Below, one piece after another: positions 19,385 to 54,454 of a DNA stretch of 64,000 nucleotides (the stretch's first letter is position 1; the number at the start of each line of letters is the position of its first letter). Below the pieces are notes generated by a model that was not told the origin of the DNA, searched no databases, and saw only the letters and a list, made by a program, of their open reading frames with translations. The stretch spans positions 2,015,821-2,079,820 of the forward strand of contig JAJEKV010000057.1 of NCBI GenBank assembly GCA_021234155.1, written 5' to 3'. The DNA is from Isoetes taiwanensis. Lineage: Eukaryota; Streptophyta; Lycopodiopsida; Isoetales; Isoetaceae. Made by a program: the position numbers and the translations under genes.

Positions 19385-20393
19385 AGCTGATTGCCCAACA
19401 AGATCAAAATCTCTAACGTTCCTCCATGGCAAAGATCCGTGGTGAATAGTCCCATTTAGGTCATTGGAAGACATATCAACCTTTAGAAGCTTCTTTGTTT
19501 CTTCCTAGGTTTGCTTGGGAATAGGCCCCGTGAGATTATTAGCCCACATAAACAATACCGCAGATTAGGTGGGTCTCCAAAATACTTCGGGGAATCTTGC
19601 CATGCGGTTGGTTCTGAAAAACTTACTAGCTCCGGTGATGCAACGCATTAAAAAGTATTGTGCCACCGAGCTGATTATTAGAAAGATCCAAGGATTTGAG
19701 GTTTGTCAATAGCCCCCATTCTTCGGGAATAATGCCCACCAGAGAATTAATCTGCAGAAAAGAGCTAATCCAATTTCTTGAGATTCCCGGTTCGGTTGGA
19801 ATCGTGCCATTGAGGGTACAAGAAGAGAGGTCTAATCGTCGATTCGATAATCTGCCAAACTCCGGTGGAATCCCTCCTGAATACATGTTGTAGTAACCCA
19901 GATACAAATATTGGAGCTGAGAAAGGTTGCCAAGCTCCGGAGGTATCCTTCCTGATAAAGAGTTGCCTGCAAGAGCCATATATTTGAGATGCTTCATTTC
20001 TCCATATTCTGGAGGAATGGGTCCTTCGAAATAGCTCCCACCCAGATGAAGATGTTTCAGATTTTGAAGCTTCTCCAACTTCGGTGGCAGAGGACCCGAG
20101 AAATTATTGTTGTATGCATCAAGATTTTCCAGCCGCCCCTGTAATCTTGCCGCATTAATATGGACAGATCGCCCCTGTTTTCGCCCCTGTTTTGACCTAC
20201 GAGGCCCAAAAACACAGAGATTAGAACTCTTTTGGCTCTGTTTCATGCAAGGCCCGTTCCAGCGAGAAGGAAGAACGCCCCTGTTTTCGGCCATAGCCAT
20301 GCTGCCTGATCTGTAGAAGCAAAAATAAAACAAGAACAAGAAAAGAAGGAAACCCCAGCCGGAGCAAGCCGCCATAGCCGAAAAACCTTCCAC
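19385..20393 (-). pseudogene. Captured CLV1/BAM-like LRR receptor fragment
   Basis: The minus-strand frame 20393-19626 (255 residues) begins with a signal-peptide-like segment (GFLLFLFLFYFCFY, residues 14-27). After an unrelated 60-residue stretch it has about six leucine-rich repeats with LGGSYFEGPIPPEYGEM, GNSLSGRIPPELGNL and GYYNMYSGGIPPEFGRL. These are close to the CLAVATA1/BAM class of receptor kinases, which sense CLE peptides in meristems. Beyond 19626 further LRR text continues with stops and frameshifts to about 19390 (LLKVDMSSNDLNGTI). There is no transmembrane or kinase part. It lies inside a TIR element and opposite no other gene. Because introns are absent and the ends are ragged, I read it as a transduplicated, nonfunctional fragment, although the long open frame is notable. 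Confidence 0.82.
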
Positions 20394-20669
20394 AAGAACA
20401 GTACGTCAAAAAATTGAATTTTTAGTGAGATATTCCAGATGGTGATTCTGTGGCATGGAATAAAAGTGCGGTGATTCCGTCCCACGGTATTTTGCGGAGG
20501 TGATTCCGCCGGAAGGTATAAAATGGACGGTCAGGATGCACTCTTTAGATGGATGGCTGGGATCAATCAGAAGGTACACCTGACACGGTCTGTGATTCCG
20601 CGGGATGGAACCTGGGTACATTTATTTTCACCCGATGACTAGGCACACACATGCCAGAACACTAGGCAC

Positions 20670-20945: not shown

Positions 20946-21820
20946 TTTCCAACGAAAATTTTTTGGGGCTTTTAAACATGATCAGGTAGCATTTTTTTTT
21001 TCTCCTGTATTTTGTGCTGTGTTGCAAAAGGAGCCAATGATGTAACTTATTTGGAATTACCGGCTGAAGAATTTTCTAATGCTGTGACCTTGCTGCAGAC
21101 TGAGGCTTTAAAATGTTAGTGGTCCTTCGTTGTTAATTTTTACCTTGTTTGCTTGATTCTAGTACGTTTTGTTTTGTCTTGTTTGGCCTTACAATTCTTC
21201 TTAGATGCTCGGCCAGTGATAATACTTGTTTTGGAATTACTAGCTGAATATGAATGCGGTCTTATTGCTGCAAACTGAGGTCTAGTTGTTGGTACTGGAT
21301 TCGCATGTATGTAATATATAGCCTATGATGCACAAATATTTCTACCTGACATATGAAACTAGTGATTCGATACTGTTGCTGAGGCTTATTATTCTCGAGT
21401 TTTAGATACTGGGCTTATTTATTGCTGGTAATTGTACCACTGTATTTTTTCTGTGGTCAACCTTATGCATCTTGTTTAATGAACTGGCGTTTTGCATTTG
21501 CTGGGATCTGTGTTTTCTTGAACGGGCTTCCTAAGAACTTGTCTGGGGTGTGATCAACCTAGTAAAATAACCCGGCAGTGTTGAAGTTTCAGATTGGAAT
21601 GGCAAGATCTAAAATGTTTACTAGATGCGATTATTCTTGTAATGGTGGGCCTAAACTTGTCTCCTCTCTTGGAAATGTCAATTTTGATTAGCAACTTCTG
21701 CAAACCAAGCATCCCGTTAAACAACCAAGCCACACATATTCCCATAAGCAAGCCAAAGCAATCTCACATATTCCCATCAATTTCACATATCTTACATAAA
21801 GCAATCTGGAAATGGAAATT
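20946..21820. other. Spacer without recognised gene
   Basis: T-rich DNA with a poly-T run at about 20991-21001. Short frames show no domain. Confidence 0.45.
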
Positions 21821-22049
21821 GGAGAATGAAAATTGTTGGAATCTTATTTTTATAGTTACGGGACTCCCTTACAGGTTGTATATTAGAGAATGAGAAATGT
21901 TGGAATTTTATTTTCATGGTTATGTATATTAGAGAATGAGAAATGTTGGAATTTTATTTTCATGGTTATAAGACTCCCTTACAGGTTCATGATCATATTG
22001 TATATTGGAGAATGAGAAATGTTGAAATCTTATTTTCATAGTCATAAGA
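21821..22049 (+). repeat. Three to four direct repeats, about 45-70 bp
   Basis: Units built on GAGAATGAGAAATGTTGGAA with TTTTATTTTCATGGTTAT recur at about 21826, 21885, 21931 and 22005. One unit at 21961-22001 (AAGACTCCCTTACAGG, then TTCATGATCATATTG) is a paralogous unoccupied copy of the site where the 22055-22608 element inserted. Confidence 0.7.
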
Positions 22050-22054
22050 CTCTT

Positions 22055-22237
22055 TGTTGGAATGCTCGAGTATGTGTAATGGGCACACATGAAGAATGAC
22101 TCAATGGAAGAGTGTCGAAAGCCCATCAAAGGGCTGGTAGCTCAGTGGTAGAGTACTTGGCTTGCAAGCAAGAGGTCCTGGGTTCGATCCCCATCCCCAG
22201 CCTGTCCACCCAATCATAGAAAGCTCATTTCTCAACA
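22055..22237 (+). repeat. TRIM 5' LTR
   Basis: TG...CA-bounded, 183 bp, directly followed by the primer-binding site. It contains a tRNA-like unit at 22131-22208 that has a 6-bp duplication in the T-arm/acceptor region. Confidence 0.9.
22131..22208 (+). tRNA. tRNA-Ala-like sequence in TRIM 5' LTR
   Basis: It shares the A box TAGCTCAGTGG and B box GGTTCGATCCC with the copy at 22508. A 6-bp duplication after the T loop (CCCATC before CCCAGCC) disturbs the T stem and acceptor. It is probably a pol III promoter carried by the retroelement rather than a decoding tRNA gene. Confidence 0.65.
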
Positions 22238-22254
22238 TGGTATCAGAGCCATGG
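22238..22254 (+). other. TRIM primer-binding site
   Basis: TGGTATCAGAGCCATGG directly abuts the 5' LTR. Its first 12 bases are the standard plant primer site complementary to initiator-Met tRNA. Confidence 0.9.
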
Positions 22255-22430
22255 TCCCAAGTAAAGGGTGCTTAACCGCACCGGGATAGTCCCCAGTGGT
22301 GTAGGGGTGAGAATGGGCAAATCTTGGCCAGTAGAAAGCCCAACTCCCGCAGTGGTGGAGTTGCCCGAGGAGGGGAGCATGTGGATTGTGGTGAAGGCTG
22401 GAATGGATTGGTGTGCCCATTAAGGGGGGA

Positions 22431-22608
22431 TGTTGGAATGCTGGAGTATGTGTAATGGGCACACAATGAAGAATGACTCAGTGGAAGAGTGTCGAAAGCC
22501 CATCAAAGGGCTGGTAGCTCAGTGGTAGAGTACTTGGCTTGCAAGCAAGAGGTCCTGGGTTCGATCCCCAGCCTGTCCACCCAATCATAGAAAGCTCATT
22601 TCTCAACA
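22431..22608 (+). repeat. TRIM 3' LTR
   Basis: TG...CA-bounded, 178 bp, preceded directly by the polypurine tract TAAGGGGGGA. It contains the better-folding tRNA-like unit at 22508-22579. Confidence 0.9.
22508..22579 (+). tRNA. tRNA-Ala(TGC)-like sequence in TRIM 3' LTR
   Basis: Seventy-two bases fold as a full cloverleaf. The acceptor GGGCTGG/CCTGTCC has six of seven pairs, including G3.U70. The D arm is GCTC-AGTGGTA-GAGT. The anticodon arm is CTTGG-CTTGCAA-GCAAG, with anticodon TGC and one G.G mismatch at the loop. The T arm is CTGGG-TTCGATC-CCCAG (perfect), and the last base is A73. G3.U70 is the universal alanine identity pair, which supports descent from tRNA-Ala. The A box TAGCTCAGTGG and B box GGTTCGATCCC are intact, so pol III transcription is plausible. 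No run of T terminator follows closely. It sits inside an LTR, so it is unlikely to be a host decoding tRNA. Confidence 0.75.
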
Positions 22609-22662
22609 CTCTCTTGAGGTTTCATGATCATATTATATATTGCAATGCCACTTTTGTTGAGG

Positions 22663-22718
22663 ATCACAATCGAATTTACCTGCATGGCATATCACAATCG
22701 AATTTACCTGCATGGCAT
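22663..22718 (+). repeat. 28-bp exact tandem duplication
   Basis: ATCACAATCGAATTTACCTG plus CATGGCAT occurs twice back to back. Confidence 0.9.
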
Positions 22719-22763: not shown

Positions 22764-22969
22764 GTTTAATAGCTCTCGCTATTTGTGCGTGAAACAATGT
22801 GCATTTGCGTTTAAACCCACAATCAAAAGACTTCGTTCAAAAGATCTGGCTCAATTTTGGCTTTGTGTTTAATAGCTCTCGCTATTTGTGCGTGAAACAA
22901 TGTGCATTTGCGTTTAAACCCACAATCAAAAGACTTCGTTCAAAAGATCTGGCTCAATTTTGGCTTTGT
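22764..22969 (+). repeat. 103-bp exact tandem duplication
   Basis: The unit starting GTTTAATAGCTCTCGCTATT at 22764 repeats at 22867 with no visible change. The predicted frame 22799-23044 only reads through this repeat and is not a gene. Confidence 0.92.
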
Positions 22970-24961: not shown

Positions 24962-26487
24962 TGTGACGTTCCATCATAACATACGGTATGAATACGTATA
25001 TTATACTGACACGTCACTAGTACATGTCGACTCAGACGACATGTACACGGCGATCGTAAAGGGTAGTACCCTAGGGTACGACCTTGTGAACCATTATATT
25101 GCACATGTTAAGGCCACATATGAATATAATATCTTTTGCCATGTGGCAATAGCCCATTGACCAAAAGTGTCCAGCCCTAAAATTCGTGGGGATAAAGGGG
25201 CATAAACCCTAAAAGGGAAACCCTTTCGGTTTCCAGCCCCTATAGGTCGGATTGGAGTAGCATTGGACGCCATTTCGCCTGAAGAGTAGCAGAGGAATCG
25301 GAATTCCTAGGTTGCAGCTCGATCCAAGACCAGCAGTCTCGAAATCCAGCGGCATGGACGCTTTCAGAGAAGTGGGAGCCAGCCAAGAAGCGGGTTAGTG
25401 GTTGATCCGATAGTTAGATCCGAGTTTTCAGCCCTCATTCCATAGGATTAATATCCATTCTTAGCTATAGGCGACCCCTACAGCCTAAGAATGATAAACA
25501 CTAACAAAGGAACCTAACCATGTATGATTAGGTAGATTAGAATAGATGTATTCTATTATTTCAGTTCTGTTGTGTTGATGTTTTGACATTCTATGCGCCA
25601 CTCTTGTGTATTGGGAAGGGGGGTAGAGACCCAGAGCCCAAGTAGATGGATGATCCTAGTTTTAGCCCATTAATTCCCAATTAATGCGGCCTGTGCATAA
25701 GAGCCCGCCTGGCTGTGGGTGGCGGAGCTAGACCGGCTGACAAGGAAGGGCTTGTCTGATTACAGTTGATCCCTCTGGTGCGTAGCGACGGCCGGGGAAC
25801 ATTGTGGGCTAGGCCTAATACCCTGGCACTGCGTGAGGGCAGGGTATGGGCTCGACACCTCTTGGATCTTCTAGGGGTTCAAGTCGTATACGAGCAGTGG
25901 CTCTCTAGCTCGCCTGTGATTGCATGAACCTTCTGGAGGGGAGTGATCTCCTCCTGCCTCATCGGGAGCTAGGGAGATGCAACCCAGTAATAGCCCCCTT
26001 GGCTATGAACCCGGCAGGCTACGGTCAAGCTCCAATACTTTTCAGCCTATCTGCAAAGTATGCACATGAGGGGCGGATGGAGTGGACTTACCCAACGGCC
26101 ATGTTCCTATGCCAGCCATTGTTATCCGGAGACCCAAGCCGTCAGTCTTTCCCCATGAGTTTGAGCCTGGGTAGGATCTTCCCCATGTTATGTTGATGTA
26201 CTGATGTGTTGTTGCAGCTACTGTGATATGGTGGACCACCCTTCGAGGTGGGTATGTTATTGTTGATTGATGTCATGTGCTCATGTTTGCTTACGCTTTC
26301 GCAGCTAGGACGATCCCGAGGGAGACGGGATGAATGACACGTCCATTCTTCCCTGTCGGGCTCTTGGCCACCATCAAGGGCCCGATGTTAGGTGGACGGC
26401 CTCATGTCAGCGAGCAGATGCTGGTTTGAGGGATGATCTCCAGTTTGTATACGATCGGGGCATCGTATATGAGCTGGGGCCGTCACA
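24962..26487 (+). repeat. LARD 5' LTR
   Basis: TGTGACGTTCC start and GGCCGTCACA end. It shares ATACGTATA, GACACGTCACTAG, GGGGGTAGAGACC and GCATAAGAGCCCGCCTGGCT with the right LTR, and in diverged form with the Ty3 LTR at 6587. Short frames within it (24903-25160, 25924-26196) are not genes. Confidence 0.92.
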
Positions 26488-26488
26488 A

Positions 26489-26505
26489 TGGTATCAGAGC
26501 TCTGA
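26489..26505 (+). other. LARD primer-binding site
   Basis: TGGTATCAGAGC, one base after the LTR, matches the initiator-Met tRNA 3' end. Confidence 0.9.
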
Positions 26506-51887: not shown

Positions 51888-53451
51888 TGTGACATTCCAG
51901 CATAACATACGGTATGAATACGTATATTATACTGACACGTCACTAGTACATGTCGACTCAGACGACATGTACACGGCGATCGTAAAGGGTAGTACCCTAG
52001 GGTACGACCTTGTGAACCATTATATTGCACATGTTAAGGCCACATGTGAATATAATATCTTTTGCCATGTGGCAATAGCCCATTGACCAAAAGGGCCCAG
52101 CCCTAAAATTCGTGGGGATAAAAAGGCATAAACCCTAAAAGGGAAACCCTTTCGGTTTCCAGCCCCTATAGGTCAGATTGGAGCAGCATTGGACGCCATT
52201 TCGCCTGAAGAGTAGCAGAGGAATCGGAATTCCTAGGTTGCAGCTCGATCCAAGACCAGCAGTCTCGAAATCCAGCGGCATGGACGCTTTCAGAGGAGTG
52301 GGAGCCAGCCAAGAAGCGGGTTAGTGGTTGATCCGATAGTTAGATCCGAGTTTTCAGCCCTCATTCCATAGGATTAGTATCCATTCTTAGCTATAGACGA
52401 CCCCTACAGCCTAAGAATGATAAACACTAACAAAGGAACCTAACCATGTATGATTAGGTAGATTAGAATAGATGTATTCTATTATTTCAGTTCTGTTGTG
52501 TTGATGTTTTGACATTCTATGCGCCACTCTTGTGTATTGGGAAGGGGGGTAGAGACCCAGAGCCCAAGTAGATGGATGATCCTAGTTTTAGCCCATTATT
52601 TCCCAATTGATGCGGCCTGTGCATAAGAGCCCGCCTGGCTGTGGGTGGCGGAGCTAGACCGGCTGACAAGGAAGGGCTTGTCTGATCACAGTTGATCCCT
52701 CTGGTGCGTAGCGACGGCCGGGGAACATTGTGGGCTAGGCTTAATACCCTGGCACTGCATGAGGGCAGGGTATGGGCTCGACACCTCTTGGGTGATGCGT
52801 CATCTTCTAGGGGTTCAAGTCGTATATGAGCAGTGGCTCTCTAGCTCGCCTGTGATTGGCATGAACCTTCTGGAGGGGAGTGATCTCCTCCTGCCTCATC
52901 GGAAGCTGGGGAGATGCAACCCAGTAATAGCCCCCTTGGCTATGAACCCGGCAGGTTACGGTCAGGCTCCAATACTTTTCAGCCTATCTGCAAAGTATGC
53001 ACAGGAGGGGCGGATGGAGTGGACTACCCAACGGCCATGTTCCTATGCCAGCCAAATCCATTTGCCATGAATTTTGTCTGCATTGTTATCCGGAGACCCA
53101 AGCCGTCAGTCTTTCCCCATGAGTCTGAGCCTGGGTAGGATCTTCCCCATGTTATGTTGATGTACTGATGTGTTGTTGCAGCTACTGTGATATGGTGGAC
53201 CACCCTTCGAGGTGGGTATGTTATTGTTGATTGATGTCATGTGCTCATGTTTGCTTACGCTTTCGCAGCTAGGACGATCCCGAGGGAGACGGGATGAATG
53301 ACACGTCCATTCTTCCCCGTCGGGCTCTTGGCCACCATCAAGGGCCCGATGTTAGGTGGACGACCTCATGTCAGCGAGCAGATGCTGGTTTGAGGGATGA
53401 TCTCCAGTTTGTATACGATCGGGGCATCGTATATGTGTTGGGGCCGTCACA
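51888..53451 (+). repeat. LARD 3' LTR
   Basis: It matches the 5' LTR throughout, with two small extra segments (near 52791 and 53055). It ends GGGGCCGTCACA and is followed by the target duplicate ATGTC. Confidence 0.92.
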
Positions 53452-54454
53452 ATGTCCAGAGATTTGATGCAAGATTGTTAAGCTCAGTAGAGGTATACAA
53501 AGGTGGTTCAGGCTTCCAAGTTTGGAAGGATGCCATAAAGCACATCTTAGAGGTGGAAGATGTTTGGGATCTTGTTAACCCCTCTGGAGAATTTGATGGT
53601 CAAGATAGTTCTGCTACAAGTGCAAATGTAAGAGTTGAAACAGGAGGTAACTCTAATACTAATATTGCAGCTATAAGTACAGGAGATGCAAGTTCAGGAC
53701 AAACCTCTGCCACTGTAGCTGCTCGAGTTGAACAAGGAAGGAGTCTGTTTGCAAGTTCAAAGGAGGCACAAGGTATTATTACCTCAAAGGTCAGTCCAAC
53801 TATAAGACAGAAATTGAGAAACATGACTGCGAAAGAAATGAGAAGTTACTTGTTAAAACATTATGACGAGAAAACATCCTCTCAGATAGATCTTCTTGAA
53901 AGGGAATTGAGAAAGCTAAAACTAAAAGATGAAGATGATGTTTCAGAGTTATTTAACAATTTTGACAATCTTGTGGCAGACTTAAGTGGGGCAGGTGTGA
54001 ACTTAACTGAGAGATATCAGGTACTTGCCATAGCCAGAGCTGTTTCTGATAATGAGAACCTCTCACTATTGCTAAATCTCGAGAGGATGCTGAAGGAATT
54101 TTGAGAACTGAAATTGAGCAAAAAAGGGTAATGAGAGAAGATGAGGATGAATCAGCTGAAATACTCTATACAGGAAGAAAAGGGAAGGGTAAGACTGACA
54201 AGGGCACATGTTTTTATTGCCATGAGCAAGGGCATTTTAAAAACAACTGTCCTAAACTAAATAAAGAATTTAATTGCTACACATGTGGTGGAAGGGGGCA
54301 TTTAGCAGCAAAGTGTCCAACACTAAAGGATTTCTCAAAGGGGTCGAGTGGCAGATCTACAGGAGCATATTTGGCCAAAGAACGAGTGAATGAAAAGGAA
54401 GAAACTGAGGAGGAAGATGAGGTATCTAGAATTTGTGCGTTCATTGATAAATAA
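53452..54454 (+). pseudogene. Copia gag with two CCHC knuckles
   Basis: Copia coding sequence resumes right after the LARD target duplicate. The first frame reads RFDARLLSSVEVYKGGSGFQ, then VWKDAIKHILEVEDVWDLV, a UBN2-type gag start; the start codon lies in the ATGTC at the insertion point. The gag body includes SQIDLLERELRKLKLKDEDD and SELFNNFDNLVADLSGAGV. A frameshift at about 54100 leads to the second frame (54101-54454) with zinc knuckles CFYCHEQGHFKNNC and CYTCGGRGHLAAKC. Gag binds RNA and forms particles. The LARD insertion separates it from its 5' LTR, so it is inactive. Confidence 0.88.

Follow-up and report, generated by a model that had tools for sequence, protein, structure and literature searches.

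Helenus elements are TRIMs that carry tRNA-derived sequence in their LTRs, and their described hosts are fungi, animals, and, among plants, Selaginella moellendorffii alone (Kojima 2024, PMC10886601). Together with Cassandra and Ajax they are grouped as TRIMp3, and the screen in which they were recognised dealt with two-LTR TRIMs under 1000 bp (PMC10886601). Helenus-1_SMo, the sole plant family reported in the available part of that description, has an LTR of 120 bp, an internal region of 85 bp, and a 5-bp target-site duplication (TSD) (PMC10886601). Transcription of Helenus by pol III is expected by the same source but stated there as not validated (PMC10886601). The Helenus type is also named in a 2026 meeting report citing Kojima, as far as its accessible text goes (PMC12859917). 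Within the open-licence PMC literature searched, represented in part by excerpts, no report of the Helenus type in Isoetes was found.

The window, a stretch of 64,000 nucleotides from Isoetes taiwanensis, harbours a 554-bp LTR element at 22055-22608, the features of which are collected in Table 1. The original prediction, made from the letters of this stretch, described a TRIM-type LTR element with TG...CA LTRs, a primer site, and a purine tract, and its coordinates hold. The near-perfect 5-bp target duplication was likewise recovered, with four of five positions in agreement (CTCTT/CTCTC), and the nearby repeat proposed as an empty site does align across the joined flanks. Between the left and right LTRs there are two substitutions and one 1-bp indel, and the T arm of the left block additionally carries a 6-bp tandem duplication; the longest ATG ORF in the element extends over 62 codons on the minus strand. 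We take the primer-binding site (PBS), TGGTATCAGAGCC, to match initiator tRNA-Met. Adjoining the element upstream, a 46-nt unit is repeated four times (window 21813-22044), and downstream of it there are exact tandem duplications of 28 bp (22663-22718) and 103 bp (22764-22969).

Other repeats and coding remnants are also present in the window. A repeat of ~1.5 kb occurs in two near-identical copies, at ~24962-26487 and ~51888-53450 (97-99% identity in the listed blocks, with ends set by eye). The former copy is followed by TGGTATCAGAGCT at 26489 and the latter by an ORF (53394-54104) encoding a Copia-type gag domain; judged from their sequence, the two copies look like large LTRs. Furthermore, an ORF with leucine-rich repeats lies on the minus strand at 19626-20405 and presumably resembles part of a plant receptor kinase gene. 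A fern host is not supported: two protein searches bearing on it gave no match, and a leucine-rich repeat search gave 269 matches, the 120 listed being a mixture of plant, bacterial, and unnamed metagenome proteins.

Table 1. Features of the tRNA-bearing LTR element and its immediate surroundings (positions in the window)
Feature	Position	Strand	Basis
Left target-site duplication, CTCTT	22050-22054		4/5 match to right copy; empty-site alignment
Left LTR, 183 bp, TGTTG...CAACA	22055-22237	+	LTR alignment
Left tRNA-like block, T arm broken by 6-bp tandem duplication	22131-22208	+	Rfam tRNA 43.6 bits at 22131-22199; LTR alignment
Primer-binding site (PBS), TGGTATCAGAGCC	22238-22250	+	Directly after left LTR; exact in 23/28 complete copies
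Internal region, 193 bp, without long ORF	22238-22430	+	Alignment; ORF scan
12-bp hairpin, 5' arm	22411-22422	+	Inverted repeat, kept in family
Polypurine tract, TAAGGGGGGA	22421-22430	+	Directly before right LTR
Right LTR, 178 bp, TGTTG...CAACA	22431-22608	+	LTR alignment
12-bp hairpin, 3' arm	22453-22464	+	Same sequence in left LTR at 22077-22088
Right tRNA-like block, anticodon TGC by position, A-box/B-box type motifs; 5:68 and 31:39 non-standard	22508-22579	+	Rfam, ARAGORN
Right target-site duplication, CTCTC	22609-22613		4/5 match to left copy
Paralogous repeat with empty site matching joined flanks	21932-22014		Alignment

The element agrees with Helenus in four structural features, namely its size and LTRs, the tRNA block, the PBS and polypurine tract (PPT), and the 5-bp TSD. 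In common with the described members, it is a short non-coding LTR element with a tRNA-like block and box A/B in both LTRs, an internal part bounded by a PBS and a PPT, a doubtful tRNA function, and 5-bp TSDs as in the fungal and plant members (PMC10886601). The block motifs, TAGCT..TGG and GGTTC, also fit the Helenus box description (PMC10886601). Compared by description only, the element differs from Helenus-1_SMo (120/85 bp) in having LTRs of 178-183 bp and an internal region of 193 bp, and it resides in another genome (PMC10886601). With Cassandra it shares the plan of a TRIM whose LTR holds a small-RNA promoter, the formation of tandem LTR-internal-LTR arrays, and the sequence TGGTATCAGAGC, which is part of the Cassandra search pattern (PMC7215508). 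Cassandra, however, carries 5S in its LTRs, whereas a tRNA-like block without a 5S match is found here (PMC7215508); across 22000-22700, 5S rRNA is absent and RF00005 is the sole Rfam match at E up to 1. A Cassandra-like layout with a tRNA replacing the 5S had been proposed, and the family-wide presence of the block in the LTRs bears this out; the suggested novelty of such a TRIM is lost, as the kind already carries the name Helenus (PMC10886601). The tRNA-derived SINE2 elements share a tRNA-like pol III head (PMC10886601). Unlike in SINE2, the block lies inside LTRs accompanied by a PBS, a PPT, and 5-bp TSDs, and the mobility is therefore of the LTR type.

The genome of the host (1,658,258,908 bases in 1110 contigs) was searched with the element, and the best 40 of 378 candidates were scored. 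These loci showed 89-100% identity across most of the element, and 28 of the 40 contained a complete LTR-internal-LTR triplet under limits set in this analysis. The remaining 12 were truncated, arrayed, or had an LTR 8 nt shorter near the start; L025, L031, and L035 are variants whose LTR is without these 8 nt. Tandem LTR-internal-LTR arrays were present at several loci, for instance L011, L034, L037, and L044. A perfect 5-bp TSD flanked 23 of the 28 complete copies, to be set beside the four of five positions of the window copy. In four copies the duplications do not match; GGGAA stands before three of these (L011, L020, and L044), as it does within tandem arrays, and the fourth (L046) is diverged. 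An offset control matched in only 1 of 560 comparisons; set against the 23/28 perfect duplications, and together with the 40 scored loci, this places the element beyond chance. Substitution divergence between the LTRs of a copy ranged from 0 to 6.4% (median 1.7%), and seven of the 28 copies had identical LTRs. Moreover, L009 and L010 are identical 547-bp copies with different TSDs, so the movement is recent. Flanks were otherwise distinct, with the exception of copies within arrays, two matches of short length, and a single locus with mutually similar flanks. The element is thus a member of a real, recently active TRIM family with a tRNA-like block in both LTRs. Exact element patterns gave 0 matches in viral_contigs and genome_contigs; as both collections consist of viral, bacterial, and archaeal DNA, this result says little on relatives elsewhere.

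The block is a family-wide component of the LTR. In all 39 fetched relatives the Rfam tRNA model scored above its gathering threshold (80 matches), and hence the block belongs to the family. ARAGORN returned 71 predictions in 39 of 40 loci (none in L047), comprising 69 Ala TGC, one GGC, and one undetermined. When the genome was searched with the block only, the best 40 of 440 candidates fell in loci already known (24) or were new (16). All 16 new matches lay inside family LTRs, a count which covers the best 40 candidates, so that a diverged block outside an LTR may be missed. Three of the 16 (L059, L068, and L069) are solo LTRs with a perfect 5-bp TSD. A further search with the tRNA family model, unbiased to the block, was scored for the best 63 of 99,846 candidates; among the matches fetched, the blocks most like that of the element were L134 and L138, both within family LTRs. 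L138 has the anticodon TGT and was considered as a possible second family; this was rejected, since the sequence is a degraded 3' LTR belonging to an old copy that carries TGC in its other LTR. The counts of 39/39 relatives and 16/16 further matches in family LTRs also refute, for the scored copies, the idea that a tRNA or SINE had inserted into the window copy alone and spread to its second LTR by gene conversion. A private block, or copies devoid of LTR, PBS, and PPT structure, had been named in advance as fatal to the original prediction; neither was encountered, with 28/40 loci complete, the PBS TGGTATCAGAGCC exact in 23/28, and 16/16 blocks in LTRs.

The tRNA-like unit predicted for each LTR was detected by Rfam, with 63.6 bits in the right block (22508-22579) and 43.6 bits in the left block (22131-22199), and ARAGORN called tRNA-Ala(TGC) in the window element from the right copy only. 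The anticodon TGC and the two alanine identity features, G3.U70 and A73, are present in the right block as claimed, and both features are kept in the commonest block of the family. The claim of a full cloverleaf did not survive: pairs 5:68 (T-T) and 31:39 (G-G) are not standard, and the fold of lowest energy differs from a cloverleaf and has a stability no greater than that of shuffles. The cloverleaf minus the two non-pairs takes up less than 0.1% of the ensemble, a value from a plain energy model without modified bases that serves as a hint only. The same two non-pairs recur in every one of the 25 right blocks that are 72 nt long, the 3 of 28 blocks with other lengths having been left unscored. 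Hence, the fully paired acceptor and anticodon stems of an intact tRNA-Ala gene, as it had been called, are lacking family-wide. The closest host tRNAs outside family LTRs, among the best matches to an Ala query and to the tRNA family model (a partial set), comprise Ala (AGC, with a single TGC variant) and Ile(TAT), each sharing 78% identity with the block in a gapped comparison. The block is therefore no recent copy of those genes, and recent capture of a host tRNA-Ala was rejected for the matches listed. The host tRNA-Ala sequences (L080-L109) contain ATCGATAC in the T arm, as against TTCGATCC in the TRIM block. Numerous closely spaced tRNA matches, apparent as arrays apart from the TRIM family, were noticed on contigs C926, C232, C1101, C1079, and C1018; those of C926 and C232 are Ala, with Trp called in their vicinity, and Ile(TAT) and others occur elsewhere.

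Sequence variation adds to this picture. Across 27 copies, the diversity of the right block is 0.021 per site, compared with 0.069 and 0.080 in the LTR stretches on either side, and the contrast is weaker for the left block (0.037 versus 0.056 and 0.072 beside it). The lower variation of the right block is suggestive and not decisive, because circular shifting of the right-LTR profile equals or surpasses its low diversity in 11 of 177 cases. Within the right block, the 5' acceptor strand (0.070) is as variable as the LTR flanks, followed by the A-box region (0.031), the B box (0.0135), and the 3' acceptor strand (0.0106), with the anticodon arm (0.0087) as the least variable long part. An anticodon arm below both the B box and the A-box region speaks against a pure promoter pattern, which does not predict so quiet an arm; a recent origin of many copies from few sources may explain it. 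Among the 28 right blocks, 17 are identical.

In our judgement, with a probability of roughly 0.8, this is a Helenus-type TRIM whose RNA is most likely made by pol III from the block in the 5' LTR, the block being retained chiefly for promoter function rather than as a tRNA gene. That the block instead acts as a tRNA-Ala(TGC) gene, spread by the element and adding functional tRNA genes to the host, is very improbable. This reading draws on the 69 of 71 ARAGORN predictions (40 loci) for Ala TGC, on the retained G3.U70 and A73, and on the quiet anticodon arm, and it is opposed by the two fixed non-pairs, by a cloverleaf that is not the preferred fold, by the mere 78% identity to the closest host tRNAs among the matches listed, and by the drift of one LTR of an old copy to anticodon TGT. 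Among described Helenus families, seven from bivalves and 15 from fungi are reported as potentially able to encode a tRNA, and 133 predicted tRNA-Ala-TGC of Puccinia triticina stem from one Helenus family, yet Kojima judges Helenus a less likely source of functional tRNAs in the part of the description available (PMC10886601). It is also rather improbable that the element is an ordinary pol II TRIM with the block as an LTR passenger devoid of promoter function. The circular shifts and the unexceptional A-box region and 5' acceptor strand would suit a passenger, whereas a right-block diversity of about a third of that in the flanks and the low values of the B-box region and 3' acceptor strand would not.

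For the preferred reading, a Helenus-type TRIM transcribed by pol III, the life cycle may be envisaged as follows. Pol III would start near the 5' end of the block (~LTR position 77), making positions 1-76 of the LTR U3 and the rest R and U5, and transcription would proceed through the internal part into the 3' LTR, to or past its end. A tRNA would then prime the minus strand at TGGTATCAGAGCC, and the plus strand would start at the purine tract. Integrase from a putative autonomous element, probably of the Copia type, would insert the copy with 5-bp TSDs, the presumed helper being an autonomous LTR element that supplies the enzymes. The two fixed non-pairs may spare the RNA from tRNA processing. 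No terminator was identified within the LTR; by reasoning, read-through past the 3' LTR would be compatible with strand transfer and need not block it, because strong-stop DNA could pair with the internal R copy. TTTT is missing from 27 of 28 elements, and its absence was rejected as a sign of pol III, as shuffles of one copy lack TTTT in 63% of cases.

Additionally, the stretches 22411-22422 and 22453-22464 form a perfect inverted repeat of 12 bp that encloses the purine tract together with the beginning of the 3' LTR. A 12-bp stem of the same size range arose in 0 of 2000 shuffles of the region, and across 28 aligned copies 334 of 336 pair cells are standard, with two broken. The changes among the 336 cells amount to three from G-C to G-T and one from C-G to T-G, with no double-sided change, and covariation was dismissed as having too few changes to support it. 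The arms are not the most conserved part of the element, 35 and 152 of 543 alignment windows being less variable than they are. Any conserved function of the hairpin is a guess, because its arms are not the most conserved and double-sided changes are absent. No mention of a hairpin around the purine tract was found in the available portion of the Helenus description (PMC10886601). The hairpin enters into an extended proposal, in which promoter and product would be split: pol III would start on the block, the broken pairs would stop RNase P and tRNase Z from cutting the genomic RNA, and the hairpin, holding the purine tract and the first bases of the 3' LTR in its loop, would act as a further cis signal in plus-strand priming or packaging. 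Built on sequence features, this proposal is tentative and on balance unlikely, though worth keeping in view.

What is perhaps new here is the host, the recent activity, and the conserved 12-bp hairpin around the purine tract and the beginning of the 3' LTR. The family also carries a warning for annotation, as gene finders call its LTR blocks as tRNA-Ala; a paper on I. sinensis gives 8,975 tRNA genes in the text available (PMC10541799). Copies with identical LTRs offer a good system for testing pol III transcription of a tRNA-bearing TRIM. The I. taiwanensis family would be a second plant Helenus, both hosts being lycophytes. With two lycophyte hosts, the question arises whether the Helenus type is old in the lycophyte lineage.
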